A stretch of DNA of 56,066 nucleotides from an uncultured Clostridia bacterium (GTDB lineage Bacteria; Bacillota; Clostridia; Christensenellales; Borkfalkiaceae), in the NCBI GenBank assembly GCA_947631925.1, contig CANRNE010000014.1, forward strand, positions 1-56,066, in the 5' to 3' direction. A program made the position numbers and the translations under genes. The notes under the pieces were generated by a model. The model did not search any database. It had not been told where the DNA came from and saw only the letters and a list, made by a program, of their open reading frames with translations. Position 1 is the first letter of the stretch. The number at the start of each line of letters is the position of its first letter. Positions 9,444-54,072 of the stretch are shown here, in pieces.

Positions 9444-10017
9444 AGACGCACCCGCAGTAGTTCTGGCGGTACATGCCGTGCTCCTTGGAGAGCTCCACAG
9501 AGCGCAGATATCCGCCCCGCTTCTTAAAATCGGAGGGAAGATATCGAACGCCGTACTCCTCCTGCAGGGCAAAGCCGATTGCGTTGATGAGGTCGCTGTT
9601 TTTGAGCGGAGACAGGGTAAGCGTCGTCGCAAAATAGTCGTAGCCCCCCTTCTTTGCCTCCTCTGCCGTGCGGCGAAGGCGGAGCGTAAAGCATGCCTTG
9701 CAGCGCGCGCCCCCCTCTTTCTCCCCTTCGAGACCGCGGGCGGCGTCGTAAAACTCCTCCGGGCGGTAGTCGCAGTCGAGAAAATCGGCATACCCCGTCT
9801 CCCGCAGAAAACGCACCTGTTCGGCCTTTCTGCGGGCGTATTCCTCCTCGCTGTCGAGGTTGGGGTTGTAGTAGAGGACGGTCGTGCGGAAAATGGGCGC
9901 GACCTGTTCGAGACAATAGGAAGAACAGGGTGCGCAACAGCTGTGGAGCAGCAGCCTTTTTCCCGCCGCCCCCTTGAAAATTTCCCGCATCTGCGCGTCG
10001 AAGTTGGGCCTGTTCAT
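9421..10017 (-). CDS. queH: Epoxyqueuosine reductase QueH
   Basis: QueH converts epoxyqueuosine to queuosine in the tRNA wobble position and replaces QueG in many bacteria. The 198-residue product has the characteristic HSCCAPCSSYCLE motif near residue 26, CKACFTLRLRRTAEEA near residue 105, and YCGCVFS at the C-terminus. These Cys residues are expected to bind the Fe-S cluster and metal site of the family. It starts 3 nt after the stop of the ruvX-DUF1292 gene with only a weak ribosome site, which points to translational coupling. Confidence 0.95.
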   Translation of the reverse strand: MNRPNFDAQMREIFKGAAGKRLLLHSCCAPCSSYCLEQVAPIFRTTVLYYNPNLDSEEEYARRKAEQVRFLRETGYADFLDCDYRPEEFYDAARGLEGEKEGGARCKACFTLRLRRTAEEAKKGGYDYFATTLTLSPLKNSDLINAIGFALQEEYGVRYLPSDFKKRGGYLRSVELSKEHGMYRQNYCGCVFSKSARP

Positions 10018-10020
10018 GGC

Positions 10021-10767
10021 TTACTCGCCGTCGTCTTCTTCGTCGTCCTCGTCGTAGCGGCGCGTGAACTCCTCGAAGAGTTCGTCGAGCAGGGCGTCGT
10101 CGTCGACGGTTTCGAGGTGTTCGTCCTCCTCACTGCCCGTGACATGGAAGATGGCGACGTCCTCGCCCTCGTCTTCCTCCCCTTCCTCGGCCTCCAATGC
10201 GGGCGTGAGCGCGACATACCACTCGCCCTTGTACTCAAAGGTCATGAGGTGCTCGTAGCGATACGTCGTCCCCTCGTCGTCGACGAGCTCGACGATGCTG
10301 TCGTCCTCGTAATCGTTGCCTTCTTCCTTCATATCCGACATCTTGTGCCTCCTGTCCGAAAGATAATTTTCGAGAATGTACGCCGCTGCAAGCGAGTCGA
10401 CATTCTTCTTTTTTTTGTCCTTTTTTGCGCTGATGCCGAGCGCATGCAAGTCGCTGCGCGCGGCGCGGGTCGTGTACCGCTCATCCGAAAAGCAAATCGG
10501 GATTTTCGCCGCCTCTTGAATCTTTGCGGCGAATTTTCTCGTCTTTGCCGCCTGCACGCCCTCCTCCCCGCTCTCCTCGAGAGGAAGCCCGCAGACGATG
10601 AGGGTTGCGCCCTTTTCCCTTGCGATTGCGGCGAGCGCCTCGGCGTCCTCGGCGGGATTCCCCGTGCGGAAGTAGGTGTCCGAGGGCATGGCGTACTCCC
10701 CGAAGGGGTCGGATGAAGCGACGCCCACCCGTCTGTCCCCGATATCGAATGCAATGATGCGCTCCAT
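10021..10767 (-). CDS. ruvX: RuvX (YqgF) Holliday-junction resolvase-like nuclease fused to a DUF1292 domain
   Basis: The 248-residue continuous frame begins at MERIIAFDIGDRRVG. An in-frame extension upstream of it overlaps a promoter and has no ribosome site. Residues 1-140 form the RNase H-like YqgF domain with the first acidic motif (FDIGD), CGLPLEESG, the SDERYTTRAA glutamate and VDSLAAAYILENYL. From residue 143 (MSDMKEEG) the protein becomes a DUF1292 domain (SIVELVDDEGTTYRYEHLMTFEYKGEWYVALTP) and ends in an acidic tail. In many Bacillota ruvX and the DUF1292 gene are separate neighbours; here the ruvX stop is missing. A perfect ribosome site remains in front of the internal ATG, so a free DUF1292 protein may also be made. 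queH follows 3 nt later. Confidence 0.88.
   Translation of the reverse strand: MERIIAFDIGDRRVGVASSDPFGEYAMPSDTYFRTGNPAEDAEALAAIAREKGATLIVCGLPLEESGEEGVQAAKTRKFAAKIQEAAKIPICFSDERYTTRAARSDLHALGISAKKDKKKKNVDSLAAAYILENYLSDRRHKMSDMKEEGNDYEDDSIVELVDDEGTTYRYEHLMTFEYKGEWYVALTPALEAEEGEEDEGEDVAIFHVTGSEEDEHLETVDDDALLDELFEEFTRRYDEDDEEDDGE
10339..10353 (-). promoter_or_regulatory. Internal Shine-Dalgarno and ATG inside the ruvX-DUF1292 frame
   Basis: On the minus strand AGGAGG (10348-10353), six nucleotides, then ATG (10339-10341) opening MSDMKEEG, exactly at the domain junction. Initiation here would make a 106-residue stand-alone DUF1292 protein ending at 10021. Confidence 0.7.
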
Positions 10768-10773
10768 ACCCAA

Positions 10774-10802
10774 AGTATAGCACGGTTTTTGCAAAAAGGC
10801 AA
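10774..10802 (-). promoter_or_regulatory. Promoter of ruvX-DUF1292-queH, possibly leaderless
   Basis: TTGCCT (10797-10802), a 17-bp spacer and TATACT (10774-10779) on the minus strand. Only six bases (TTGGGT) separate the -10 element from the ATG at 10767, so transcription would begin at or next to the start codon. Confidence 0.55.
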
Positions 10803-10843
10803 GGAATTTGCCCCGCCTTTTGCCGTCCCCTTTGCAATCGGGC

Positions 10844-10876
10844 AAAAAGAACCCCCGCGCTTTTGCAGGGCGGGGG
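10844..10876 (-). terminator. Rho-independent terminator of the large lipoprotein gene
   Basis: On the minus strand, CCCCCGC and GCGGGGG pair around a CCTGCAAAAGC loop and are followed by TTCTTTTT, 8 bp past the stop. Confidence 0.85.
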
Positions 10877-10883
10877 AAGTGCA

Positions 10884-13235
10884 TTACTCTTGTCTGTCGA
10901 GATAGGTGAGCGAATATCTTCCTTTGAAGAAAGCAATCTGCGAGACGGGGCTGTCGTCCGTATTATTGATGATGGAGCATTCTTCCGAACCGAGTTTGAA
11001 GGTGAATTCTTTGTTGGCATAGGCGACGTCGGTTGCGACTTGCTTGACGCCTGCCATTGTCACCTCGATGCCGCTTTCGGAGATGGTGATGACGGTGGCG
11101 CCGTCCTCGCTTTCGTAGGTGCCGTAGAAACTCTCCTCAGTCAACGTCGGGCCGACGGGGGTGTCGCTGCCCGAACTTCCCTGCCGCGTGAGATTTACAG
11201 TCGGGTCTTGCCAATAATCAGGGACAAGGCAAATTTCATCCACGGTATCGCCCGTGCTGTAATTCCGTATCACATACTCCTTCCCGTCCAACGTGATTGA
11301 AATGTCCCCATAGCGCGCGTCATAGCCGACATAATTGACGGGCTTGGGGGTGCCGTCCACCGTGATGACGATGCCGCCTGCGGAGATGATGACGACATAC
11401 GCCGAGCCGTCCGCCGTCTCCCCCTCATAGGTGCCGTGGAACTTCTCGGGATAGCCCGAGGGCGTGGGCACGGGGTCGCTTTCGAAGGTGACGGGGAGGA
11501 CCGTCTCGTCCCAGTCGCGGTAGGTGAAGGTGTAGGTGGTGACGGAGTTGTAGAGGCGCGTCGTGACGGTAAGGGACTTCAGGGTCTCGTTCTCCACCGT
11601 CAGTACAAGTTCCTCGGCAAAGGACATCGTCACGGTGTCGTTGCCGTCGTAGAAGAGCTGGGCGATGGCAGGGACGAGGTCGACGTCCTGTGCGCGCACG
11701 GCGAATTTTCCCTCCCCCTTCGGCTCGAAGAGGGCGGCGGAGACGCTGTCGAAGTGCGCCTGCAACTCGGAGATGTCACCCGTCTGGTGGTTGCCGTAGT
11801 TGCCGTCCGCATTGTAACCCTCCACCGAGGCGGGGGCGCCGATTTCTCCCCGCGTGCCGTTTACCGTGAATTCATGCACGAGGCCGTCGTGCAGGATAAA
11901 GCCGAGCTCTGCGTCATTCTCGTCGTTGTAGACGGCATTCTCCGTCACATAGACGTTGTATTCGTAGGTCCCGAAATTGTCCTGTTCGACGACATGATAG
12001 GTATAGCTGTTCGCCTCCGCCGCGCTCTGCAGCGCCCGCTCGAGGGCGGTGTGCTCGTTCGCGTATTCGTATGGCGTCTTTCTGCCCGAGAGGTCCTCCG
12101 CCGCTTCCACGGTGAAGTCGTAATTCGCCACGTAGACGTAGTCGAGCTCGATGCCGTGGGCGGGGCATTCCTCCGTCTCGATGTGGAAGGCATACACGCC
12201 CTCGTCCGCCGAGGCATATGCCTCAAAACGGGCCACGTTGTCCGTCTGTCCCGTGAGGGCACGGGCCGCTATCTGCGCCTTGCCCGCGTCGCGGATGACA
12301 TACACGCCCGTGCGCACGAGGGAGAAATCGGACGCCTGCACGAGGGTGCCGAAGGGATTGCGGTAGTTGTCGAAGCTCTCACCCGTGAGCGTCGTCGTCT
12401 CCACCCGATTGTCGAGGGTGCGCTCATATTCGACCACGCTGCCGTTCTCCTGTGAGAAGAGGCTGTTGTAGTACAGGATATTCATCCCCGTGTCCCGCTT
12501 GAGGCGGAGCACGTTTTCATGGCCGTCGAAGGCGGTGCGGAAGGCATATTGATAGATGATGGGGAAATCCTCGTACCCCTCATAGATGCGGTCCTCTTCT
12601 CCCGTGCCGATGACGGAGAAGGGCGCCGTGACGGAGGCAAGCAGCGCCGCTTCCATGTTGGGCGCCGTCTCAAACGTCACCGAGATGTTGAGATTTTCCG
12701 TCACTTTTTCCTTATGAGAGTTGTTGCCGTCGAGCGTCTTCGTCTCGCCGTTGACTTGGAAGGCGGAGACGATGTACCCCGCGACGGGTTCGACGGTGAA
12801 GGTGACATCGGTGCCCGCGGGATAGACATTCCCCACGCGTGCGGGAGAGAGCACGACCGCGCCCTTTTCCGCCTCGCAGTCCACCGTAACCGTGTACTCG
12901 GAGGATTCCGAAGGGGCAAACGTCACCGAGAGCGCAATGTTCTTCGTCACGGTGAAGGTGTACGTGTTATCCGTCAAAGGCGTGGAGATGCCGTCCGCGA
13001 GGAAGTCGTCGACGGCGTAACCCGCCTTGGGGGTCACGGTGGCGGTGACCACGGTGCCCGAATCGTAGCGATTGTTCTCGCGCGGGGGATTGAGGGTCAG
13101 GGTGCCCATCGTCTCGTCGCAGGTAACGGTGACGGAATATTTACTGCCCCCTTGCGGCGCACATGCCGCCAGCCCCGCCGCAAGAAACAGCGTCGAGAGC
13201 ACTGCCAGTATGGCGATGAGAATGCGTTTTTTCAT
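10884..13235 (-). CDS. Large surface lipoprotein with bacterial repeat domains
   Basis: The start is the ATG at 13235, 7 bp after GAAGGAGG; an upstream TTG in frame lies on top of that ribosome site and is rejected. The 783-residue product has a type II signal peptide with lipobox LAAC, placing the lipidated Cys at residue 25. Two related extracellular modules of about 80 residues follow (YSVTVTCDETMGTLTLNP and YTVTVDCEAEKGAVVLSP), each with GYAV/GYIV and VTFAP/VTFE ends, typical of bacterial repeat domains. A long central region is unrecognised. The C-terminus carries two more related modules (FHGTYEGETADGSAYVVIIS and FYGTYESEDGATVITIS). The substrate or partner is unknown; adhesion or polysaccharide contact is a guess from the architecture. 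Confidence 0.85.
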   Translation of the reverse strand: MKKRILIAILAVLSTLFLAAGLAACAPQGGSKYSVTVTCDETMGTLTLNPPRENNRYDSGTVVTATVTPKAGYAVDDFLADGISTPLTDNTYTFTVTKNIALSVTFAPSESSEYTVTVDCEAEKGAVVLSPARVGNVYPAGTDVTFTVEPVAGYIVSAFQVNGETKTLDGNNSHKEKVTENLNISVTFETAPNMEAALLASVTAPFSVIGTGEEDRIYEGYEDFPIIYQYAFRTAFDGHENVLRLKRDTGMNILYYNSLFSQENGSVVEYERTLDNRVETTTLTGESFDNYRNPFGTLVQASDFSLVRTGVYVIRDAGKAQIAARALTGQTDNVARFEAYASADEGVYAFHIETEECPAHGIELDYVYVANYDFTVEAAEDLSGRKTPYEYANEHTALERALQSAAEANSYTYHVVEQDNFGTYEYNVYVTENAVYNDENDAELGFILHDGLVHEFTVNGTRGEIGAPASVEGYNADGNYGNHQTGDISELQAHFDSVSAALFEPKGEGKFAVRAQDVDLVPAIAQLFYDGNDTVTMSFAEELVLTVENETLKSLTVTTRLYNSVTTYTFTYRDWDETVLPVTFESDPVPTPSGYPEKFHGTYEGETADGSAYVVIISAGGIVITVDGTPKPVNYVGYDARYGDISITLDGKEYVIRNYSTGDTVDEICLVPDYWQDPTVNLTRQGSSGSDTPVGPTLTEESFYGTYESEDGATVITISESGIEVTMAGVKQVATDVAYANKEFTFKLGSEECSIINNTDDSPVSQIAFFKGRYSLTYLDRQE

Positions 13236-43742: not shown

Positions 43743-46700
43743 TTATTCATCTTCTTTGGCTGCCTTTTCGCGGCGGAAGCGGAGCACGACGGAGGTGACG
43801 CCCCAAGCGGTCAGAGCCGCGGTGATTACCCACACGGCGCCGATGATGAGCCAGTAGTAAGCGAACGGGGTATCCGCTATCTGCACGCCGTGGGTGATGC
43901 CGTTCATCGCGTTGGAGTTGACCACGGTGTAGAGAACGTGCTTCATCGCCTGTCTCATATAGTACTGCGTCGCCGCATTGTTTTGGTTGGGGCCGGAGCT
44001 CGTCGCGAAGTTGGTGAGCTTGAGGTCGCCGCCCGCGCGGAGGCATTGCTCGGTGTCCATATAGCCGCCGTTGTCGTAGTCGGTGATGACGGAGCCGTTG
44101 AATGCCCACTCCTCACGGAGGACCTTGGTGATGAGCTGATAGTTGCCGCCCGCCCAAGTGCAACCGATGCGGTTGAAGGAAGTCATGACAGCCATGACTG
44201 CGGGAATCTCGAGTTCCTTCTTGGTGAAGGTTTCCGTCTCGGCGTCATACTGCTGGACCATAATCTTCTGCGTGCCGCGCTCTTCGATGCAGGTCTGGAA
44301 GGGCTTGAGGTAGATTTCGCGGATGGCCTGCTCGTTGGCAAACGTCGCGACGCTGCTTCTGTGGTCCTCTTGGTCGTTGAGGCAGAGGTGCTTGATGTAG
44401 GAATACACGCCCTTGTAAGCCGTCTCGCGGGCAGCCTGCAACGCCATCTCGCCCGACAGGAAGCCGTCCTCGGAGTAGTACTCGAAGTTACGGCCCGCAA
44501 ACGGGGTGCGGTGGATGTTCATCGCGGGAGCGTACCAGCCGGAGATGACGTCCTTGTACTGGTGTCTGCCGAAGTGGGTCTCGTCGGCATGCAGTGCGTC
44601 TTCGGAGACATAGTAGCCGTGGAGACGGGAGTTCTCGCGGTTCCAGCTCGATGCGATGTTGGCAGCGCAGGGATAGGTGATGGAGTACGGGGAGTGCGAG
44701 ACGCCGCCCTCGTTGAGGCCGGAGGGACCGTCGTAGTCAATCGCTTCGGGCTTGCCGATGCTCTGTGCACGGGCCGTCTTGTAACCGCCCTGACGAATCA
44801 TGCCTCTGATTTCGGTGAGGGTCATCTGGCTGATGTAGGCATCCCAGTCGACGTCCTCATACCTTAAGCCGCGGGCATCGACGAGCTCGAGATTGCCTTC
44901 CACGCCGAATGTGCCCGCCTTGGCGCCGGCTTCCTCTTCCGTCATCGGGTTGAGGGAGGCATCCGCGCCGACTTTATTGACCTCATCTGCGGTCGCTTGG
45001 TCGACCTCGACTTGCCATGTGTACCCGTTGAGTTCGCTGAAGCCCGACTTCTTCTGAGCATCTTGGTTGCCGTGGCGCTTGGGGAAGGTGCCTACCCAAT
45101 CCTGACGGGTGAGGTACTTGCTGCGCTCGGTGATGTTCTGGTGGCCTGCCCAGAGTGCATGGTCGAACCGGTTGGTGATGGTAACACCTGCCGCAGACTT
45201 GGAGTACGTCGTCTTGTCGACGCCGCCGTTGTCGGTGTACTCATAGGTGTACTTGCCGACGAAGTTCTTGTCGCCTGCGCCGAAGAGACCGTCCGTCTCT
45301 TTGCTGTTGTACGTGAGGAAGTTGTTGTTCGCCTCGTGCGCGTTGTGCGCCGCGGTGAGGAGATAGTCGCCCGCCTCGAGGATGTACGTCTTGGCGTTCA
45401 CGTCGTCGTAGGAGATGAAGTCCTTCAGGTTGACGGTGATTTCCACGGTCACGGGATCCGCATCGGGCTGAAGGGTATCCGTCTTGGCGAAGCCGACGAG
45501 GGAGGAGGACGCCTTCTCCACGAAGTTGGTCTTGTCGTACTGGGTGTAGGGAGCGTTGAGGTAGAGCTGGACGACTTCCTTGCCTGCGACGGTGCCCGTG
45601 TTCTTGACTTTGACGGAGACGGTGATGTCGCCGTTGTCGTCGGGCTGGCTCATCGTGAAGTCGCTCCACGTGAATTCGGTGTAGGAGAGGCCGTAGCCGA
45701 AGGGATACTGCACGGTCTTCGAATAGTCGTATTCGCCGACATTGGCAGCGCCGTTCTTCACGTCGTAGTAGCGGGTCTCGTAGTACTTGTAGCCGACGTA
45801 GATGCCTTCGTCGTAGAAGACGCCGTAATGATCTCTCTCCACCGTGCTGTTAATCGATTTTCCGTCATGGACCAATTCGATGTCGCCCATGTTCTGCATG
45901 GCGGGAGAGGAGAGGGCGTCGTATGCGAACGTGTCCACAAGGTGGCCGGAGGGGTTAATCTTGCCGGAGAGCACGTCGACGATGGAACGGCAGGTGTCGC
46001 CGCCCGCACCGGGCGCCCAGAGGACGGCCGTGATGTTCTCATAATCTTCGACCCAACCGAGTTCGAACGCATTGTTGGTGTTGACGATGATGATGACGTT
46101 GTCGAAATTGTCGTTGAGGTAGTCGATGACGCTCAGCTCGACGCTGTCGGGCTCGAGATAGTGCTTCGGCTGGTCCGCTGCAATTTCCGTCCAGTCGCCC
46201 ATGTATCTGCCGAGGTCACGGCCTTCGCCGCCCGTACGGGAGAAGACAAAGATGGGCGTGGTGCCCTGCGCTTCCGTCTTGGCAGCGTCGGGGATATCGT
46301 TGATGTGCGTCTCGTTGATGGACCAATCTTCCGCGCCGCCGTAGGAGATGGCGCCGCCGCCGCGCTTTCTGCCCGTGCCCTTATAGAAGTCCCAGAGCTC
46401 CTTGTTGACGGAGAAGCCCTGTTCTTTGAACGCCGTCCAGAGGTCGGAGGACATCGTGCTCACGCCCGAGCCCGTGCCGCCCGCAACGGGGTCTACAGAG
46501 GACTGGGAGAAGAGGGAGACTTTGCTCGACGCTGCGAGAGGAAGTCCCTTCGCGCCGTCGGTGTTCTTGAGGAGGACAAAGCCCTCCGCGCCGCCCTCGC
46601 GGGTGTATTTCTGTTCGGCAGCTTCAAGAGTGTTGATGTCGGTAAAGTCGCTCTTGTAATATTCGGTATCGATATTTGCGTTCTGTTCCGTCCCCGTGTT

Positions 46701-46856
46701 CTTCGCTTCCGCTTCGCCGAAGATGGTGCGGAACACGCCGTCGTACATCGTCGCCGAGACGATGGGAAGGACGATGGAGATGACCCAAAGAATTGCGAGG
46801 CCGCAGCCGACGAGAATGGCCAGAAGCTTCGCGCTGAGTTTCGTACCCTTTGCCAT
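43743..46856 (-). CDS. Circularly permuted glycoside hydrolase family 3 with two membrane anchors
   Basis: The 1037-residue protein reads in swapped order. An N-terminal membrane helix (LLAILVGCGLAILWVISIVL, about 9-33) is followed by the GH3 C-terminal domain (EGFVLLKNTDGAKGLPL; FSRTGGEGRDLG; LWAPGAGGDTCRSIVDVLSG; YPFGYGLSYTEF). Next come a fibronectin-like domain (VSVKVKNTGTVAGKEVVQLYL) and the GH3 N-terminal TIM barrel at about 690-950 (IDYDGPSGLN; APAMNIHRTPFAGRNFEYYSEDG; KHLCLNDQEDHR). The nucleophile Asp lies in VITDYDNGG near residue 925. A second membrane helix (YYWLIIGAVWVITAALTAWGV) follows. Both ends face the cytoplasm, leaving the enzyme outside. It probably removes glucose or xylose units from plant or mucus oligosaccharides. 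It follows the CBM-like lipoprotein gene after a terminator. Confidence 0.92.
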   Translation of the reverse strand: MAKGTKLSAKLLAILVGCGLAILWVISIVLPIVSATMYDGVFRTIFGEAEAKNTGTEQNANIDTEYYKSDFTDINTLEAAEQKYTREGGAEGFVLLKNTDGAKGLPLAASSKVSLFSQSSVDPVAGGTGSGVSTMSSDLWTAFKEQGFSVNKELWDFYKGTGRKRGGGAISYGGAEDWSINETHINDIPDAAKTEAQGTTPIFVFSRTGGEGRDLGRYMGDWTEIAADQPKHYLEPDSVELSVIDYLNDNFDNVIIIVNTNNAFELGWVEDYENITAVLWAPGAGGDTCRSIVDVLSGKINPSGHLVDTFAYDALSSPAMQNMGDIELVHDGKSINSTVERDHYGVFYDEGIYVGYKYYETRYYDVKNGAANVGEYDYSKTVQYPFGYGLSYTEFTWSDFTMSQPDDNGDITVSVKVKNTGTVAGKEVVQLYLNAPYTQYDKTNFVEKASSSLVGFAKTDTLQPDADPVTVEITVNLKDFISYDDVNAKTYILEAGDYLLTAAHNAHEANNNFLTYNSKETDGLFGAGDKNFVGKYTYEYTDNGGVDKTTYSKSAAGVTITNRFDHALWAGHQNITERSKYLTRQDWVGTFPKRHGNQDAQKKSGFSELNGYTWQVEVDQATADEVNKVGADASLNPMTEEEAGAKAGTFGVEGNLELVDARGLRYEDVDWDAYISQMTLTEIRGMIRQGGYKTARAQSIGKPEAIDYDGPSGLNEGGVSHSPYSITYPCAANIASSWNRENSRLHGYYVSEDALHADETHFGRHQYKDVISGWYAPAMNIHRTPFAGRNFEYYSEDGFLSGEMALQAARETAYKGVYSYIKHLCLNDQEDHRSSVATFANEQAIREIYLKPFQTCIEERGTQKIMVQQYDAETETFTKKELEIPAVMAVMTSFNRIGCTWAGGNYQLITKVLREEWAFNGSVITDYDNGGYMDTEQCLRAGGDLKLTNFATSSGPNQNNAATQYYMRQAMKHVLYTVVNSNAMNGITHGVQIADTPFAYYWLIIGAVWVITAALTAWGVTSVVLRFRREKAAKEDE

Positions 46857-46966: not shown

Positions 46967-47665
46967 TTAGCCTTGCTGGCCAACGCGGTCGCTGTTGTCG
47001 GTGGGCGTCCACGTAAGTTTCGACGGGGACTTGACAACGATTTTATCCACGTTGATGCCGCCCTGTCCTCCGTTCATGCCCTGCGCCGTAAGCACGATGG
47101 TGTTGTCGCCTTCTTTGAGGTCGACAACCACTTTGCCGGTGCCGATGTTCTTCATGAGTGCGCCCCACGTGCCGTCCATCATCCAGCCGAAAAGCCCCAT
47201 GTCGCCTTCGGGGGGATCGAGGGTAAGTCCGGGAAGGGTGCCTTTGAGCTTCGCGTCGGTGCCGTTGACGGAAAGCTTCACCGCCTCGTCCTTAGAGAGG
47301 TCTATGGCATCGATGATAAACTTTTCGGGAGCTTCACTGCCGAAGAAGGCCCGCATGTTGCTGTTGGTCGACGACGCATAGAGCGTAATCTCAACTTTGC
47401 AAGCGGCCTCAGCCTTGATGTTGAACGTAATCGTTTCGTTTGCAGCCGTGAAATAGCCGACCATCGTGGCTTCGGTCGACGTGCTGGCCTTGTCGCCGTC
47501 CCACACGAAGCCCGTTTCTACCTGAGGAGCGGTAGACAGAACCGCGTTCTCAGCTTCGAAGGTGTAGTCATCACCCGAAACGCCGCAAGATGCGCAGGCA
47601 ACTGCGATTCCGCAAGCCAACACGGTAGATGTGGCAGCAAGGACGATCTTTTTCCAGTTTTTCAT
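46967..47665 (-). CDS. CBM-like carbohydrate-binding lipoprotein
   Basis: The 232-residue product has a signal peptide (KKIVLAATSTVLACGIAVACASC) ending in a Cys-rich lipobox with two possible lipidated Cys (about 24 and 27). The mature domain starts YTFEAENAVLS and ends with DNTIVLTAQGMNGGQGGINVDKIVV. Both are typical of family 6/35 carbohydrate-binding modules, which open with FEAE and close with a strand of this type. No catalytic domain is present, so it would capture glycans near the cell for the esterase and GH3 enzymes encoded on each side. The ribosome site is GGAGGAAATGAA. Confidence 0.8.
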   Translation of the reverse strand: MKNWKKIVLAATSTVLACGIAVACASCGVSGDDYTFEAENAVLSTAPQVETGFVWDGDKASTSTEATMVGYFTAANETITFNIKAEAACKVEITLYASSTNSNMRAFFGSEAPEKFIIDAIDLSKDEAVKLSVNGTDAKLKGTLPGLTLDPPEGDMGLFGWMMDGTWGALMKNIGTGKVVVDLKEGDNTIVLTAQGMNGGQGGINVDKIVVKSPSKLTWTPTDNSDRVGQQG

Positions 47666-47778: not shown

Positions 47779-49194
47779 TTATGCCTTCTTCTGCGCAGCC
47801 ATCCACTCCCAGAGGCTGGCTGTCTTCGTGCAGTTTGCGGGGGTGAGATAATCCACGCCCGTCACTTTGCTGTTGTCGAATTCCTTCTTCACGCCGTCGT
47901 TGAAGACGTAAATCCAAGACCAGTGTCCGTCATAGGTCACGCCGGGGGCGTCGGTGCCCACAACGCTCTCGAAGAGGGTCATGTGCACGTCGGTTGCACC
48001 CGCCTTCAGAAGACGGTCGAACGTGGGCTTCTCGAAGTTGGCGGGGGCCACGGTGCCGTCGTCGTTGGAGAGGATGAACCAAATCTTGTTGTTCTTGATC
48101 TGTGCAATCATATCGTCCGAGATGCGGCCGTCGACATACGCCTCGCAGGTGGGATAGTACGCCGCGAAGTAGTCGCTGTGGTGGAACATCATGTTCATCG
48201 TCATGTAGCCGCCGTTGGAGCAGCCGCCGAGATAGATGCGGTTGGTGTCGACGTCCGTGTTGCCTTCCACATACGTCGTAATGGCCTGCCAAAGAGCCTC
48301 GGTGTACCAGCTCTCCTGCGGGGAGCCGTCGCCGACGTCGGTGTGATTATAGGTGCCCTTGCCGTCCTGATCCATCCACATGGTGGGCGTCTGCACCGCG
48401 AGCACGTACGCGCCCGCAAGTCCGTCCTTCTTAAAATAACTCTGAATGGTCGTGTCGGTGAGTGCGGTCACCTCGTTGCCAAGAAGGTCGATGTCGATGT
48501 CCGTGCCGCCCTCGCCCGCGCCGTGCAGCCAGATGACGAGCGGGTTTTTGCCGCTGTCCGTGGCAGCGCCGTCGGGCGTCCAGCTTGCGCGCTGCAGGGT
48601 GATGTCCTTCTCGTCCTCCGTGTAGCGGACGGTGTCCTTGGCCCATGTAGCCGTCTGCGGGACGATTTTATCGGTGGCGACGGTCGCCGTGTAGGTGAAT
48701 TTGTCTCCGCCCTCGTACTTCTTGTCCCCCGCCGTAAAGTTCTTGCCGTCGGCGACGGTCACGGTGAAGGCGAACTTCTCCGACCAGTTGTTCATGTTGC
48801 TGTAGGTGAAGGGATTGCCGAGCACGTTCGCGCCCTTGTATCCGCCGAAGTTATATGCGGAAGCCTCATACTTCATCGTGACGGTGACATAGGACGATGC
48901 GGCCGTGGTCTTGTTGCCCGTAGCGTCGGAGACGAACGCGTCGACTACCGTGCGCTTGTCGTTCCCCGTCTTCACGGTGAAGGTGTCCTTGGAGACGCCC
49001 GAGACGTTGCCGCCCAACTTCATGACGATGCCGTCCACGGTGGGGCCGCCCTCGTAGCCGTGCACGATGATGCGCGACTCGGTGAGCGCCTCTGTGACGG
49101 GCGTGTGGGGCTCCTCGGGAGCACATGCCGCGATGGCCGCCATCCCGAAGGCGAACATCGCCGCGAGTGAAATCGCAACTGCTTTCTTCCTCAT
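47779..49194 (-). CDS. Secreted lipoprotein alpha/beta-hydrolase esterase
   Basis: The start at 49194 follows GGAGGAATGTAAG. The 471-residue product has a lipobox (AIAAC, Cys24), an N-terminal beta region of about 160 residues, and an alpha/beta-hydrolase fold. The fold shows NPLVIWLHGAGEGG (oxyanion-side strand), the nucleophile in IYLGGCSNGGYMTMN (GCSNG), an acid candidate in FILSNDDGTV, and a His candidate in DGHWSW. The layout matches secreted carbohydrate esterases of the PHB depolymerase/feruloyl type. It is first in the esterase, CBM, GH3 series and carries the LytTR-type site upstream, so it is probably induced by the neighbouring two-component system. Confidence 0.88.
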   Translation of the reverse strand: MRKKAVAISLAAMFAFGMAAIAACAPEEPHTPVTEALTESRIIVHGYEGGPTVDGIVMKLGGNVSGVSKDTFTVKTGNDKRTVVDAFVSDATGNKTTAASSYVTVTMKYEASAYNFGGYKGANVLGNPFTYSNMNNWSEKFAFTVTVADGKNFTAGDKKYEGGDKFTYTATVATDKIVPQTATWAKDTVRYTEDEKDITLQRASWTPDGAATDSGKNPLVIWLHGAGEGGTDIDIDLLGNEVTALTDTTIQSYFKKDGLAGAYVLAVQTPTMWMDQDGKGTYNHTDVGDGSPQESWYTEALWQAITTYVEGNTDVDTNRIYLGGCSNGGYMTMNMMFHHSDYFAAYYPTCEAYVDGRISDDMIAQIKNNKIWFILSNDDGTVAPANFEKPTFDRLLKAGATDVHMTLFESVVGTDAPGVTYDGHWSWIYVFNDGVKKEFDNSKVTGVDYLTPANCTKTASLWEWMAAQKKA

Positions 49195-49236: not shown

Positions 49237-49305
49237 ATTATAAAAAAAGAAGGGCGGCCCGTCAATGGGGTTGCCCTACTCTTTCTTTTTTTGTCCTATT
49301 CTTAC
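49237..49305 (-). promoter_or_regulatory. Esterase promoter with upstream LytTR-type site
   Basis: Minus strand: TTGACG (49260-49265), a 17-bp spacer and TATAAT (49237-49242). The 34-bp site at 49272-49305 starts 6 bp upstream of the -35 and reads GTAAG, AA, TAGGACA, seven A, then GAAAG, AG, TA, GGGCA. It matches the site upstream of the response-regulator gene at 24 of 34 positions without a gap. Confidence 0.8.
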
Positions 49306-49337
49306 ACCGCGGAGGGGGATTTCTGTGCCTTTATGAC

Positions 49338-50675
49338 TCAAGCAATGTGCCGCGATTCCGCCGTGGGGAACATCATGGTGATGGAGAAGATTCCGTCTTC
49401 AAACGAGAAGTCGAACTGGCCGCCGTACTTCTTCGCGAGCATGCGCATGCTCTTTAATCCAAATCCGTGGTTGACGACGTCCCGCTTGCTCGTTGCGGGC
49501 AGTCCCGCCTCGAGACGGAGCTTCCCGTCGTAGTAATTCACGCAGTTGACGAGCACGACGCCGCCGCTCTTTCTCACGGTGAGGTCGATGCACCGCCGCT
49601 CCTCGTCGCGGATTCTCCGCACGGCCTCGATGGCGTTGGAGAGCATGTTCCCAAAGAGGGAATAGAGGTCGTAGTCGCGGATATAGCCGAGCGATTTGCC
49701 GTCCACCATGCAGGAGAGGCGAATGCCCGCCTCGTTGCAGATGAGACTCTTCTCGGTGAGGAGCACGTCGATGGGCTCACAGCCCGTGGAGACCCGCGCG
49801 TCATAGATGGAGATGCACTTCTCCATCTCCGCCGCCTCCTCCTCGGAGAGCTCGCCCTCCTGCTTCATGATGCGAATCCGATGCTTCATGTCATGGCATT
49901 TGACGTTGATGAGGTCGATGGTCTCCTTGGCAATCTCATACTGCCGTCTGTCCTGCTGCCAGAGCTGGCGCACCGTCTCGACGTCGCTCTTGAGCACGAT
50001 GCGCTCGAGCATGCCCGACTGAATCCAAAGAATAAAAATGTTGGCAAAAATGGAAAAACAATAGATGACGAGGCTGAGCTGCCAGCTCATATAACCGAAG
50101 GTGTTGGTCACCGAACAGAGGACGACGGTGATGACGAGGGTGACGAGGGAGAGCAGGAGCACATTCCAGCTGTACAAATTCTCCATGCCCTGCGCGCACA
50201 CTTTGCGCACGAAAAACAGATAGAATAACAGGCCTGTGGCGGCAAAGATGCCGACATGGAGAATGCACTCCGCCCAGCCGAGGCCGATTTGCCCCGCGAG
50301 CAAATTCAGAGCGCCCGTGACCTCGAAGATGGAGACGAGACGGTAGCAAAGATTCTGGAAGGCATACGCGCCCGCACCGTAGAAGAGCAGAATGCGGAAG
50401 GGAACGTCGTAGCAGACGCGGAAGACAACCAGCGTGCACAAAAAGACGATGATGTAGCCGAGCGCGCCGACGATGGGGTCACCGTCCGCAAGGGAGAGCA
50501 GACAGCACATCAGAAAGGAGACGGCGACGATGAGAAAAATCCCGGGGACGAGAAATACCCAGAAGAGCGGACGACGGCGGCAGGAGCGCACAAGCAGCCC
50601 CTCCGCCGTGAGCAATTCCACGAGGAACGTCGGATACATGAAGATGCACATCCAAAGGGCGGCTTCGACGTTCAT
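49338..50675 (-). CDS. GHKL-type sensor histidine kinase (AgrC-like)
   Basis: The 445-residue product has six to seven membrane segments within about residues 1-205 (for example FLVELLTAEG, FWVFLVPGIFLIVAVSFLMCCLL, IIVFLCTLVVFRVC). A helical dimerisation region follows with the phospho-acceptor His in INVKCHDMKHRIRIM, then a GHKL ATPase domain with the N-box NMLSNAIEAVRRI and the GFGLKSM glycine box. This class senses peptides or lipids in many Bacillota. No agrB/agrD-like peptide gene is visible beside it, so the signal is unknown. Its start overlaps the response-regulator stop by 4 nt. Confidence 0.92.
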   Translation of the reverse strand: MNVEAALWMCIFMYPTFLVELLTAEGLLVRSCRRRPLFWVFLVPGIFLIVAVSFLMCCLLSLADGDPIVGALGYIIVFLCTLVVFRVCYDVPFRILLFYGAGAYAFQNLCYRLVSIFEVTGALNLLAGQIGLGWAECILHVGIFAATGLLFYLFFVRKVCAQGMENLYSWNVLLLSLVTLVITVVLCSVTNTFGYMSWQLSLVIYCFSIFANIFILWIQSGMLERIVLKSDVETVRQLWQQDRRQYEIAKETIDLINVKCHDMKHRIRIMKQEGELSEEEAAEMEKCISIYDARVSTGCEPIDVLLTEKSLICNEAGIRLSCMVDGKSLGYIRDYDLYSLFGNMLSNAIEAVRRIRDEERRCIDLTVRKSGGVVLVNCVNYYDGKLRLEAGLPATSKRDVVNHGFGLKSMRMLAKKYGGQFDFSFEDGIFSITMMFPTAESRHIA

Positions 50676-51382
50676 TTGTTGCCTCCGGCGTACAGATTCA
50701 TGAAGTCCTTCATAAACTGCCGATGGCGCGGATGGCTGATTTTGAGAACTTGTCCGCCCACATCGATGTCATAGCCGCGTACCCAGTTGACGAATTTCGC
50801 ATTGACGAGATAGCAGTTGTTGCACCGCAGAAATCCGTAGCCCTGCAGGCGTTTTTCGATGTCCGCAAGGGTGCCGCGCACTTCGATGACGTCGTCGACG
50901 AGATGAAAGCGGAGCTGGTGCCCCATGACCTCGACGAACATGATTTTATCCGTCGTCATGCAGATGGCGCCGCTCCCCGTCTGCACGGCAATGGACTGCG
51001 TCTCGCGGGCACGGGCGACGTTGATGGCCTTCTTGACTTTGAGGCAAAAATCGGCATACCGAAGGGGCTTCACGATGTAGTCGAGCGCGTCCACCTCGTA
51101 TCCCTTCTGCGCATATTGCGCCATGCGCGTGATGAACAGGAGCACCACGGCGGAATCCTTGTAGCGGAGCCTGTGCGCCGCCTCAATCCCGCTGATACCG
51201 GGGAGCTCGATGTCCATGAAAATGATGGAAAACTCGGACACGCGATAGGACGCGAGAAAGCGCTCGGCATCCGCAAAATGCCTGACATGAAATTCCATGC
51301 CCACTTGTGCACCGTACTGCCTGAAGTAGTCGGTTAAATTGGCGGCGGTGGATACGTCATCGTCGATTACTGCAATATTCAT
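50672..51382 (-). CDS. LytTR-family response regulator
   Basis: The 236-residue product has a receiver domain with the acidic pair IDDD, the phospho-acceptor Asp in FSIIFMDIELPGISGIEAA, and the switch Lys in YIVKPLRYADF. From about residue 135 it has a LytTR DNA-binding domain (DKIMFVEVMGHQLRFHLVDDVIEVRG; FLRCNNCYLVNAKFVNWVRG). The downstream kinase is its partner. Its own promoter has the same 34-bp site as the esterase promoter, suggesting autoregulation and control of that cluster. Confidence 0.95.
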   Translation of the reverse strand: MNIAVIDDDVSTAANLTDYFRQYGAQVGMEFHVRHFADAERFLASYRVSEFSIIFMDIELPGISGIEAAHRLRYKDSAVVLLFITRMAQYAQKGYEVDALDYIVKPLRYADFCLKVKKAINVARARETQSIAVQTGSGAICMTTDKIMFVEVMGHQLRFHLVDDVIEVRGTLADIEKRLQGYGFLRCNNCYLVNAKFVNWVRGYDIDVGGQVLKISHPRHRQFMKDFMNLYAGGNK

Positions 51383-51407
51383 ACTATTCCTCTCTCCTCA
51401 CTGTGAA

Positions 51408-51487
51408 AGTATATCATGTACGCGCGACAAATTCAAGGGAGGGGGCAGATTTATGACGTAAACTTTCAAATTCTGTCCTAAACTTAC
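51408..51487 (-). promoter_or_regulatory. Response-regulator promoter with upstream LytTR-type site
   Basis: Minus strand: TTGAAT (51431-51436), a 17-bp spacer and TATACT (51408-51413). The site at 51454-51487 reads GTAAG, TT, TAGGACA, G, AATTT, then GAAAG, TT, TACGTCA. It begins 17 bp upstream of the -35, 11 bp further than at the esterase, or one helical turn. It holds two AAGTTTA repeats 20 bp apart. Confidence 0.75.
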
Positions 51488-51583: not shown

Positions 51584-53017
51584 ATGACACAGATTACAAA
51601 AGACCGAAAAAGAAGCGTAGAGGCGCTGAAGAGGCTTCTGCCCGCAGAGGACATCTTCACCTTCGACTTTGCCGCCGAGGGCGGACTGCTCTTCACCTGC
51701 GTCTACTCGGATGCCGTCACCGACAAGACGGTGCTCGGCGACCAGATTGTACGGCCGCTGCAAGGGTATCGCGGCGAGGCGCGGGCGGAGGAAATTGCGC
51801 GGCGGGTGGATTTTCCCGAACTGCGCCTCGAGGTCTCCCTCGAAAAGCTCGCGGGCGAGGTGCTCTCGGGCAATCCCGCCGTGCTCTTTGACGGCATGGA
51901 CAGGGCGCTCATTGCGGGCACCAAGGCCGTCTTCGTGCGCGCCGTCGCGGAGCCCTCCACCGACGTCGCCGTGCGCGGCCCGCGGGAGGGATTCATCGAG
52001 GATATCAAGATAAATTCCTCTCTCGTCCGCCGCCGCCTCAAGACGGGGGAGCTGCGCATCGACATGATGCAAATCGGCAGGCGCTCGCAGACCGCCGTCG
52101 CCCTCTGCTATCTCGCGGGGACGACGCCGCAACAAACTGTGGATGAGGTGCGCAAAAAGCTCGGGGAAATCGACATCGACATCGTGGCCGACTCCTCCTA
52201 TCTCACCCATTTCCTCTCCTCGCGCCCCTTCTCCCTCGTCAAGCAGGTGGGGACGACGGAAAAGCCCGACATCTTCTGTGCGAAAATTGCCGAGGGCCGG
52301 GTGGGGATTCTCGTGGACGGGACCCCCATCGCGCTCACCGTCCCCTACCTTCTCGTCGAAGATTTTCAGTCGAGCGAGGACTACTTCGTGCCGGCCTACC
52401 GCGCGACGTTCACCCGCGTTTTGCGCCTGCTCGCCCTGCTCGTCGCCGTCTATCTCCCCGCCTTTTACATCGCGGGACAGCTCTTCAAACTGCGGCTCTT
52501 TCCCGTAAAACTGCTCCTCACGATTGCGGGGAGCATCCGCGACATTCCCTTCTCCCCCTCCCTCGAGATGCTGCTCGTCCTTCTCGTGCTCGAAGTGCTC
52601 AACGAGGCGTCCATCCGCATGCCGAAATACGTCGGAATGGCGCTCTCCGTCGTGGGCGCCCTCGTGCTCGGCGAGACGGCCGTCTCTGCGGGATTTGTCT
52701 CCACGCCCGCCATCATCATCATTGCCTTCTCGGGGATTGGGCTGTATGCCGTGCCCAATCTCATCGAACAGACGAGCGTGTTGCGCCTCGCCATGCTCCT
52801 CGTCGCGGGAAGCGTGGGGACGTACGGGATTATTTTGTCGACGGCATTCGTCCTTCTCTACCTCGTGACGGCGGAGAACTTCGGCGTGCCCCTCCTTGCC
52901 CCCTTCTCCCCCGTCGTCAAAAACGATTTCAAGGATTCCCTGCTCAAATACAACCTCGGCTCCCTCAAGCGCCGTCCCGTGACGCTGGAGAGCCCGAATA
53001 AGAGGAGGCAGAAATGA
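51584..53017 (+). CDS. Spore germination receptor subunit A (GerA family)
   Basis: A-subunit of the inner-membrane germinant receptor. The 477-residue product has a large soluble N-terminal region (about 1-270) with VAVRGPREGFIEDIKINSSLVRRRLKTGELR (in part), a strong GerA hallmark, then four to five membrane segments, with RDIPFSPSLEMLLVLLVLEVLNEASIRMP and the C-terminal VVKNDFKDSLLKYNLGSLKRRP. No ribosome site is strong at this start (the nearest AAGGAG is 20 bp upstream). The upstream region up to the response-regulator gene (about 200 bp) holds the LytTR site but no clear sigma-G promoter. It overlaps gerB by 4 nt. Confidence 0.95.
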   Translation: MTQITKDRKRSVEALKRLLPAEDIFTFDFAAEGGLLFTCVYSDAVTDKTVLGDQIVRPLQGYRGEARAEEIARRVDFPELRLEVSLEKLAGEVLSGNPAVLFDGMDRALIAGTKAVFVRAVAEPSTDVAVRGPREGFIEDIKINSSLVRRRLKTGELRIDMMQIGRRSQTAVALCYLAGTTPQQTVDEVRKKLGEIDIDIVADSSYLTHFLSSRPFSLVKQVGTTEKPDIFCAKIAEGRVGILVDGTPIALTVPYLLVEDFQSSEDYFVPAYRATFTRVLRLLALLVAVYLPAFYIAGQLFKLRLFPVKLLLTIAGSIRDIPFSPSLEMLLVLLVLEVLNEASIRMPKYVGMALSVVGALVLGETAVSAGFVSTPAIIIIAFSGIGLYAVPNLIEQTSVLRLAMLLVAGSVGTYGIILSTAFVLLYLVTAENFGVPLLAPFSPVVKNDFKDSLLKYNLGSLKRRPVTLESPNKRRQK

Positions 53018-54072
53018 TTTCCCGCCGCCAACTGCTATTTCTGCTCGCCTTCCTCTTCCCTGTCTCCAAGCTCGTCATGCTGCCCGCGGCGCTCGCCGAG
53101 CATGCGGAGGGCGACCTGCTCCTTCCCGCCGCCCTGCACCTTCTTCTGCAGACGGGCGCCGTCTTCTGCGCCCTCCTTCTCGCAAAGCGGGGGCAAAGTT
53201 TTTCCGAGCTCCTCGAAAATGCCTTCGGGCGGGTGTTTTCCCGCATCCTTCTCGTCCTGTATGCCCTCTTTTTGCTCTTTGCGGGACTCCTTCCCATACT
53301 CGAGCAGAAGCTCTTCGTGCAGGCGATTTTTTATGATACATTGCCCTCTGTTGCGGCGTTTGCGCCCTTCTTTCTCTTCCTCGCCTATGTCGTCTCCAAG
53401 CCGCTCCCGTCCTACGGGCGGGTGTGGGACATCCTCGCGCCCCTCTCGGTGGCCGCCTATCTCGGGCTCATCGCCCTTGCGGTGGGAGAGACCGACTTCG
53501 GCGCCCTCCTTCCCGTGGGTGCAAGCGGGTCGCAGGGCTTTTTCGGGGGTACCATGTCCGCGAGTGGGTGGTTCTATGACGCGGCGCTCCTCCTTCCCCT
53601 TCTCAAAAAATACGAATACAAAAAGGGGCTCGCTTGGAAGGGTGCGCTCTCCTATTTAGGCGGGGGATGCGCCGTGCTCTTCTTCCTCGCCGTCTTCTAC
53701 GGCGTCTATCAGGGGACTGCCGCCAACCGCCTCTTTGCGATTGCCACCGTTGCGCAGTATTTCTCGGGGATTACCATGCTCGGGCGGGTGGACTATCTCT
53801 TTGTCTTCGCCCTCTCGCTCACCCTCGCCTTTCTCGCCGCATTTCCGCTGCAGGGGGCGGCAGAGTGCCTTCTGCAGGCGTTCGGGAGAAAGAAATATTT
53901 GCCCACGGTGTACGGCGTCGTCGGCAGCGCCCTCTTCGCCGTGCTCGCAATCGTCCTCGACTACCGCTTCGGGGAAGTGCTCCTCGCCCTCGCGAAAGTG
54001 TTCTGGGTCTTCCCCCTCTTCTCCGTCGCCGTGCCCGCATGTACTCTGCTTTTCAGGAGGCGCCATGCGTAA
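53014..54072 (+). CDS. Spore germination receptor subunit B (GerB family)
   Basis: The 352-residue product has ten predicted membrane helices in the APC-transporter-like GerB fold. Visible stretches are RQLLFLLAFLFPVSKLVMLPAALAEHAEG at the start (GerB proteins usually begin with a similar hydrophobic pair and the Q-x-x-x-L pattern), and VSKPLPSYGRVWDILAPLSVAAYLG and ATVAQYFSGITMLGRVDYLFVFALS in the middle. It carries the germinant-binding site in the family. The end overlaps gerC by 8 nt. Placement between gerA and gerC supports the call, which sequence alone would make less certain. Confidence 0.9.
   Translation: MISRRQLLFLLAFLFPVSKLVMLPAALAEHAEGDLLLPAALHLLLQTGAVFCALLLAKRGQSFSELLENAFGRVFSRILLVLYALFLLFAGLLPILEQKLFVQAIFYDTLPSVAAFAPFFLFLAYVVSKPLPSYGRVWDILAPLSVAAYLGLIALAVGETDFGALLPVGASGSQGFFGGTMSASGWFYDAALLLPLLKKYEYKKGLAWKGALSYLGGGCAVLFFLAVFYGVYQGTAANRLFAIATVAQYFSGITMLGRVDYLFVFALSLTLAFLAAFPLQGAAECLLQAFGRKKYLPTVYGVVGSALFAVLAIVLDYRFGEVLLALAKVFWVFPLFSVAVPACTLLFRRRHA

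Follow-up and report, generated by a model that had tools for sequence, protein, structure and literature searches.

Two paired direct-repeat sites as the predicted address of a LytTR regulator in a portable glycan module of gut Clostridia

LytTR two-component systems are best known for the control of quorum sensing, virulence and bacteriocin production. In the agr layout (AgrC/AgrA of Staphylococcus aureus), two promoters face each other. These AgrA-controlled promoters carry paired direct repeats just upstream (PMC4227749). In LytTR Regulatory Systems, the repeats are reported to be mostly 12 bp apart, with a minority at 11 or 13 bp, and strongly biased to 10 bp before the -35 element (PMC6193735). 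Among glycan-related systems, the Gram-positive polysaccharide utilization locus (gpPUL) Ros-7 of Roseburia encodes a LytTR response regulator and a histidine kinase, RR[LytTR] + HK, beside glycan enzymes (PMC5320581). Here, we describe a module of this general kind in a 56,066-nt stretch of DNA, hereafter the window (contig CANRNE010000014.1 of assembly GCA_947631925.1, an uncultured Clostridia bacterium of the Borkfalkiaceae), in which a LytTR regulator and a GHKL sensor kinase adjoin an operon encoding an esterase, a carbohydrate-binding module (CBM)-like protein and a GH3 family enzyme. Two 34-bp sites, R upstream of the regulator promoter and E upstream of the esterase operon promoter, are, with high probability given the sequence comparisons below, the DNA address of the adjacent regulator, which is predicted to bind and activate both promoters and so to control itself and the enzymes.

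The module resembles AgrC/AgrA in joining a LytTR regulator to a GHKL kinase with an AgrC-like catalytic fold and in having paired repeats at two promoters, but differs in that these promoters are arranged in tandem, 2.2 kb apart, the repeats have a period of 20 and the targets are glycan-active proteins. There is also no room for a peptide-signal gene between the kinase and the esterase, with 59–79 bp from the kinase stop to the esterase -35 in 11 loci (no search for one was made elsewhere in the genome), and the peptide precursor and processing/export gene of agr-type peptide quorum sensing are missing from the locus. With HdrRM and BrsRM of Streptococcus mutans the module shares direct repeats (11–13 bp apart in those systems; PMC6193735) and, putatively, positive autoregulation, but their regulators are held by a membrane inhibitor, whereas the regulator here has a receiver domain and a GHKL kinase, and its candidate targets are enzymes. 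Enzymes with a dedicated regulator, the hallmark of a Gram-positive polysaccharide utilization locus, are present (esterase, CBM-like protein, GH3, regulator and kinase); unlike Ros-7, the module includes no recognised transporter and consists of GH3, esterase and lipoproteins, and neither binding sites nor a fused terminator-promoter are named in the accessible part of the Ros-7 paper (PMC5320581). The likeness to the hybrid two-component systems of Bacteroidetes, which are also dedicated sensors of glycan loci (PMC5320581), is one of logic only; the architecture differs, the GHKL kinase and the LytTR regulator being separate proteins here. The system was not recognised in the accessible parts of the literature on LytTR with GHKL, glycoside hydrolases, polysaccharide utilization or beta-glucosidases, nor in those on promoters inside terminators; novelty in print is not established.

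Each of the two sites consists of a 14-bp unit, six bases and the unit repeated (Table 1), an internal direct repeat with a period of 20 that is absent from the description in an earlier note on this DNA. That note reported two minus-strand sites identical at 24 of 34 positions, and no ungapped pair of 34-mers from the two intergenic regions matches better; dinucleotide shuffles (60 pairs) gave a mean of 18.5 (sd 1.1) and a maximum of 21. The flanks of the sites in the window match at just 11/34 (34 bp above) and 7/34 (34 bp below). The 9-bp cores (e.g. TAAGTTTAG and ACAGTTTAG) are 11 bp apart and fit what we take to be the LytTR consensus, [TA][AC][CA]GTTN[AG][TG]. Paired direct repeats approximately two helical turns apart near a -35 element are characteristic of LytTR sites, and the repeat geometry seen here, with its period of 20, agrees with the reported spacing (PMC6193735). 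Both sites lie upstream of the -35, which rules out that the 34-bp site is an element of a transcribed RNA.

The sites are specific to these two promoters within the genome. A relaxed pattern, comprising the bases common to both sites with at most 3 mismatches allowed, matches twice in the window, against a mean of 0.00 in 100 shuffles, and twice in the whole 1.92-Mb genome, both times at the known sites; the same pattern reversed, used as a control, yields 0 matches in the genome. A sequence-only profile built on 15 sites recovers the same two sites (E 1e-8 and 7e-7), the next matches being at E 0.6 and 0.9 among the 150 of 645 first-look candidates that were scored, so that the genome scan proposed in the earlier note gives no further good match.

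The comparison was extended to 103 genomes of the genus and to a collection with one genome per species (84,980 species). Among the genus genomes, 8 encode a regulator with at least 71% identity to that of the window, 20 encode one with at most 48% identity and 75 encode none at E <= 1e-50; the species collection adds three species with a 55% identical regulator (loci L124, L125 and L130), for a total of 11 module-carrying species, here group A. Seven genus relatives in this collection are uncultured Clostridia with isolate names beginning with 'Lapin' (French for rabbit), which points to a rabbit host. Both sites co-occur with the regulator, being detected by the relaxed pattern in 8/8 genus genomes with at least 71% regulator identity and in 0/95 of the others, 20 of which carry a sister LytTR regulator at E <= 1e-50. 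In L124, which was held out of the profile, both sites are found at E 1e-6 and 3e-6, and a position-weight scan ranks the E sites of L125 and L130 first on their loci (26.6 and 34.9 bits; runners-up 1.9 and 2.1). The period of 20 is kept at 11/11 E sites, at the R sites of the 8 genus genomes and at that of L124. In a non-redundant set of 8 species (with L124 and without G033), pairwise identity is 0.79 and 0.81 for the two sites, compared with 0.26–0.32 for the 34 bp upstream; within one genome, R and E match at 19–26/34 positions and the flanks at 4–14/34 (8 genomes). The two observations that the earlier note had named as damaging to its proposal, namely many random matches and loss of the site in relatives that keep both loci, were not made: the sites are retained in every examined carrier of the regulator and the esterase operon (8/8 in the genus and 3/3 further species). 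These results support the inference of that note, in which the regulator would activate both its own gene and the polysaccharide cluster.

Helical phasing is conserved along with the sites. The earlier note placed both just upstream of a sigma-A promoter, 6 and 17 bp from the -35, which is confirmed; measured from the end of the second 9-bp core, the gaps are 10 bp (esterase -35) and 21 bp (regulator -35). The distance from E to the -35 is 6 bp at 11/11 esterase promoters, and that from R is 17 bp in the 8 genus genomes, 16 bp in L124 and L125 and 27 bp in L130. All these distances, 6, 16–17 or 27 bp, differ in steps of one helical turn, so that the spacing keeps the sites on the same helix face across 11 species. 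The esterase -35 itself is invariant over the 8 species of the anchored profile; L125 and L130, outside this profile, have TTGAAA.

The module is not the only one of its kind in the genome. The genome encodes six LytTR genes, all with a GH3_C domain on the same contig within approximately 1.2–6.5 kb (contigs C1, C3, C14 and C15); with 12 GH3_C domains found in the 1.92 Mb, the chance of 6/6 LytTR genes being located near one (7 kb each side) is, by arithmetic, about 5e-7. Among loci fetched by regulator similarity, GH3 lies within 7 kb of 45/51 LytTR matches, and the six loci without it include five that are cut by a contig end and one real case (L130). A sister set of 22 loci (L086–L107; group B), with regulators 42–48% identical to that of the window, has a different paired repeat, approximately RCAATYKGTGTAAAAA..RCAATTTGAGAAAC, with the same period of 20 and the same 10-bp gap. 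Group B contains 35 sites above a score gap from 13.1 to 1.7 (for example, L103:6581-6620), which precede 16 GH3 genes, 18 genes of one family (GH16 in 4/4 tested members) and one truncated frame. A profile (R2) built on 14 training sites from L086–L093 is positive in 14/14 other group B loci (L094–L107), a test that is partly independent, as the training picks used a scan of all loci, and gives no match at E <= 1 in the group A loci or the window. In five genomes with both modules, the best matches of the group B profile are at the B module; of three matches at other places, one is strong (G033 C4) and two are weak (E 0.008 and 0.026). The profile has no match in the window's own genome. Conversely, the group A address was not found in the sister-module loci (best match E 1.4), and one further locus, L085, with a 48% identical regulator, has no match to the group A profile at E <= 5 or to the group B profile at E <= 1. 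No group B site was seen upstream of group B regulator genes, and from these sequences autoregulation looks like a group A trait. A consensus-blind search for pairs within loci, a weak detector, finds pairs in 8/49 loci compared with 0/147 shuffles, 2 of the 8 being group B loci. Separately, in several group B loci (for example, L086, L087 and L088), the -10 of the regulator promoter lies within a dyad such as CTTCATCTGTTACAATACGGATGAAG, a possible operator or leader hairpin.

Many enzyme promoters of both groups overlap a hairpin. In group A, it is present at 11/11 esterase promoters (z -2.05 to -5.64), with the -35 in or at the loop, the left arm reaching over the final bases of the second half-site and a T-rich run that follows and forms part of the spacer; the nine regulator promoters have no such fold (z -0.17 to +1.85). 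In group B, 18/19 GH16-type promoters have z values of at most -2.25 (in L097, the stem takes in half of the -35), and 7/16 GH3 promoters are below -2, six of them at -4 or lower, with a hairpin in 3/4 of those directly after the kinase, the exception being L091. Of 255 promoter-like sites, 31 have a stem of at least 8 around the -35, and by our own reading 27 of these are LytTR-site promoters; the window hairpin, with two unpaired positions on each arm, is not among the 31, and the built-in hairpin scan reported it on the plus strand only. The group A hairpins are located 59–79 bp past the kinase stop (11 copies), and those of the GH16-type promoters lie 32–83 bp past a kinase match in 12/19 cases and at 1.4 kb or more in 7/19. 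An open-frame scan was non-discriminating, as it placed same-strand frames, some of them antisense, 47–346 bp upstream of 8/8 regulator promoters tried, and the location after a gene therefore rests on the kinase matches. The architecture of an intrinsic terminator, i.e. a G+C-rich hairpin followed by a T run after a gene, is found at 11/11 group A enzyme promoters, with an imperfect stem in the window, which suggests that the enzyme promoter is fused to a putative terminator of the upstream regulator-kinase transcript.

The mechanism that we infer, including regulator binding, the direction of control, the signal and termination, starts with the membrane GHKL kinase, which would sense a probably glycan-related signal and phosphorylate the regulator. 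Each 34-bp element would be bound by two regulator subunits, one per half-site and both on the same face of the DNA, and these would recruit RNA polymerase, resulting in positive feedback at the regulator promoter and, at the esterase promoter, in switching on the esterase, the CBM35-like protein and GH3. The putative fused terminator is expected to stop the regulator-kinase transcript, so that the enzymes would need a site of their own.

Several observations weigh against this mechanism or complicate it. Regulator binding and its effect on expression are computational predictions, and the sites are candidates; the contact motif of the regulator, FLRCNNC, differs from that of AgrA, FFRCHNS, at the H, the S and other positions. 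The esterase promoter is close to consensus (11/12), so that by this measure alone no activator is required, and this unforeseen strength, together with the hairpin over the -35, complicates simple activation. At up to 3 mismatches, the reversed control pattern has 26 matches in 23/103 genus genomes; because of this, the single 3-mismatch matches present in 4 of the 95 other genomes are taken as noise, and 3/16 module sites (both in G257 and E in G243) are themselves 3-mismatch matches that were counted by position alone. The two G257 sites are on two contigs, each next to the expected genes. In L125 and L130, the profile matches the E sites partially and weakly (E 0.14 and 0.034) and does not find the R sites, where diverged repeats with a period of 21 were recognised by eye. 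Finally, no convincing paired sites were found at the five other LytTR loci of the window's genome (L109–L113).

Alternative explanations of the sites themselves range from improbable to hardly credible. The regulator might bind both sites but restrain or fine-tune an intrinsically strong enzyme promoter, autoregulation being the main purpose, and both the better consensus of the esterase promoter compared with the regulator promoter (11/12 versus 9/12) and its invariant -35 in the 8 profile species fit this possibility. We nevertheless consider it improbable, given that the sites are located wholly upstream of the -35 and in phase, like known LytTR activator sites such as the promoter-proximal AgrA repeats centred near -60 (PMC4227749), and that 11/11 enzyme promoters retain the site. 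With six LytTR genes in the genome and the partner of the sites assigned by inference, they could be the address of a different regulator, such as one of the five remaining LytTR proteins, but this is very unlikely because the sites track the adjacent regulator (both present in 8/8 genomes with it; two sites in 0/95 without, including the 20 with a sister LytTR) and because group B has a different address, with no cross-match of the two profiles between group A and group B loci. Chance or a recent duplication would be consistent with a short sequence that occurs twice per genome; given, however, the excess of identity over the shuffle maximum and over the flanks within each genome, the probability of this explanation is negligible, and it is rejected on the grounds that the sites are conserved in 11 species with the flanks at background.

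A different question is whether the hairpin at the enzyme promoter is a terminator or, instead, an operator palindrome recognised by a further DNA-binding protein, for instance a repressor. The operator is an appreciable although unlikely alternative that draws on the position of the hairpin over the -35, the two mismatched positions in the window stem and the weak covariation in the 11 group A copies alone, for which the percentage of paired positions is reached by 74/500 shuffles and the covariation score by 22/500 (in L117, L118, L125 and L130, the right arm is displaced by one or two columns). In contrast, the arms of the group B hairpins covary and include U-G pairs: in 16 copies (GH16-type promoters, with L090, L091 and L097 left out, and L105 and L106 kept with arms shifted by one), there are 22 doubly changed cells compared with 7.9 +- 3.6 in shuffles, none of 500 reaching this number, and at most 6 in slid controls. 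Of the other measures, 5 pairs are changed on both sides compared with 2.6 in shuffles (20/500 reach this value), and the number of pair types, 9 compared with 9.3, is not raised (491/500). The T-rich run after the hairpin and its location shortly past the kinase, in all group A copies and within 100 bp past a kinase match for 12/19 GH16-type promoters, also argue for the putative terminator.

The gene labels of the earlier note hold for the regulator, kinase, esterase and GH3, on Pfam and domain matches (Table 1). In the regulator, D57, T85 and K105 are invariant in 8 aligned rows, and the receiver is intact. The structural model of the kinase has approximately seven N-terminal helices, and the closest PDB folds of the model are those of the AgrC kinase domain (6e95 and 6e52); C260-H261-D262, H265, N343 and N347 are invariant in an alignment of 9 rows. 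A polytopic membrane sensor combined with an H box and a GHKL ATPase marks an AgrC-like kinase, which we take to be of the HPK10 type. The esterase also has a match to PHB-depolymerase-type esterases below the curated cut-off and to the PDB esterase 3doh (E 1e-11), and GH3 is permuted in the manner of PDB chains 5wug and 5k6l, as far as the matched ranges show. For the protein that the earlier note called a carbohydrate-binding module, no Pfam match was found, and the label is retained as CBM35-like from the predicted fold.

Table 1. Features of the LytTR/GHKL glycan module in the window.
Feature	Coordinates	Strand	Description
Site R	51454..51487	-	Direct repeat pair of period 20, GTAAGTTTAGGACA-N6-GAAAGTTTACGTCA; precedes the regulator promoter
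Regulator promoter	51408..51436	-	TTGAAT-17-TATACT; 9/12 consensus; -35 starts 17 bp past site R
LytTR response regulator	50672..51382	-	236 aa; receiver and LytTR domains (PF00072, E 1e-16; PF04397, E 2e-10; above the curated cut-offs)
GHKL sensor kinase	49338..50675	-	445 aa; Pfam HATPase_c_5; H261 in CHDMKH
Site E	49272..49305	-	Direct repeat pair of period 20, GTAAGAATAGGACA-N6-GAAAGAGTAGGGCA; precedes the esterase operon promoter
Hairpin	49251..49277	-	Loop holds most of the -35 (AGGGCAACCCCATTGACGGGCCGCCCT); T-rich run after; z -2.47
Esterase operon promoter	49237..49265	-	TTGACG-17-TATAAT; 11/12 consensus; -35 starts 6 bp past site E
Esterase	47779..49194	-	471 aa; Ig-like domain and alpha/beta-hydrolase; Pfam EstA_Ig_like, Peptidase_S9; lipoprotein-like signal by eye
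CBM35/CBM6-like protein	46967..47665	-	232 aa; lipoprotein-like signal by eye; AlphaFold model pLDDT 78, top PDB folds CBM35
Permuted GH3	43743..46856	-	1037 aa; GH3_C precedes GH3_N; hydrophobic segment at each end, by eye

On contigs of sufficient length, the gene order is common: regulator, kinase, site E, esterase, one or two CBM-like genes and GH3. In L130, the kinase matches as two adjoining pieces in different frames (9761-11037), and the locus as fetched has no GH3 match; this module may be decaying. The tblastn spans of the second CBM-like gene in two loci (L120:13386-14090 and L082:3748-4422) hold an in-frame stop, reflecting either a decayed copy or an alignment overrun, and these two CBM rows were dropped for stop-codon errors. 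The flanking frames, compared as the longest open frames, some of which are on the wrong strand, are unrelated between species except for a near-identical pair (L122/L123) and two weak matches (25–32%). In the window, the module is adjoined by divergent gerA- and gerB-type spore germination genes (51584-54072; GerA and Spore_permease), and queries with these genes against 40 loci give no match above 25% identity. No transporter was found among the five module proteins, and the flanking frames, which were not annotated for transporters, are not common between species. By these comparisons, the module behaves as a unit that is portable and carries its regulatory sites within itself, and the description 'self-contained' in the earlier note fits a module with a different neighbourhood in each species apart from the one near-identical pair.

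More broadly, we tentatively suggest that gut Clostridia of this family have expanded parallel LytTR/GHKL glycan modules, each with its own period-20 address and with enzyme promoters embedded in the terminator of the upstream gene; if so, transcription of the sensor gene into the terminator would compete with, or gate, transcription of the enzymes. A mostly uncultured gut lineage seems to use LytTR two-component systems as dedicated switches of plant-glycan modules, several per genome. Because the sites are internal to the module and the sister group has a different address, the module set represents a natural experiment on how LytTR regulators read DNA, and it might supply portable genetic switches that work independently of each other. 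The putative fused terminator-promoter would be a compact element that is directly testable.

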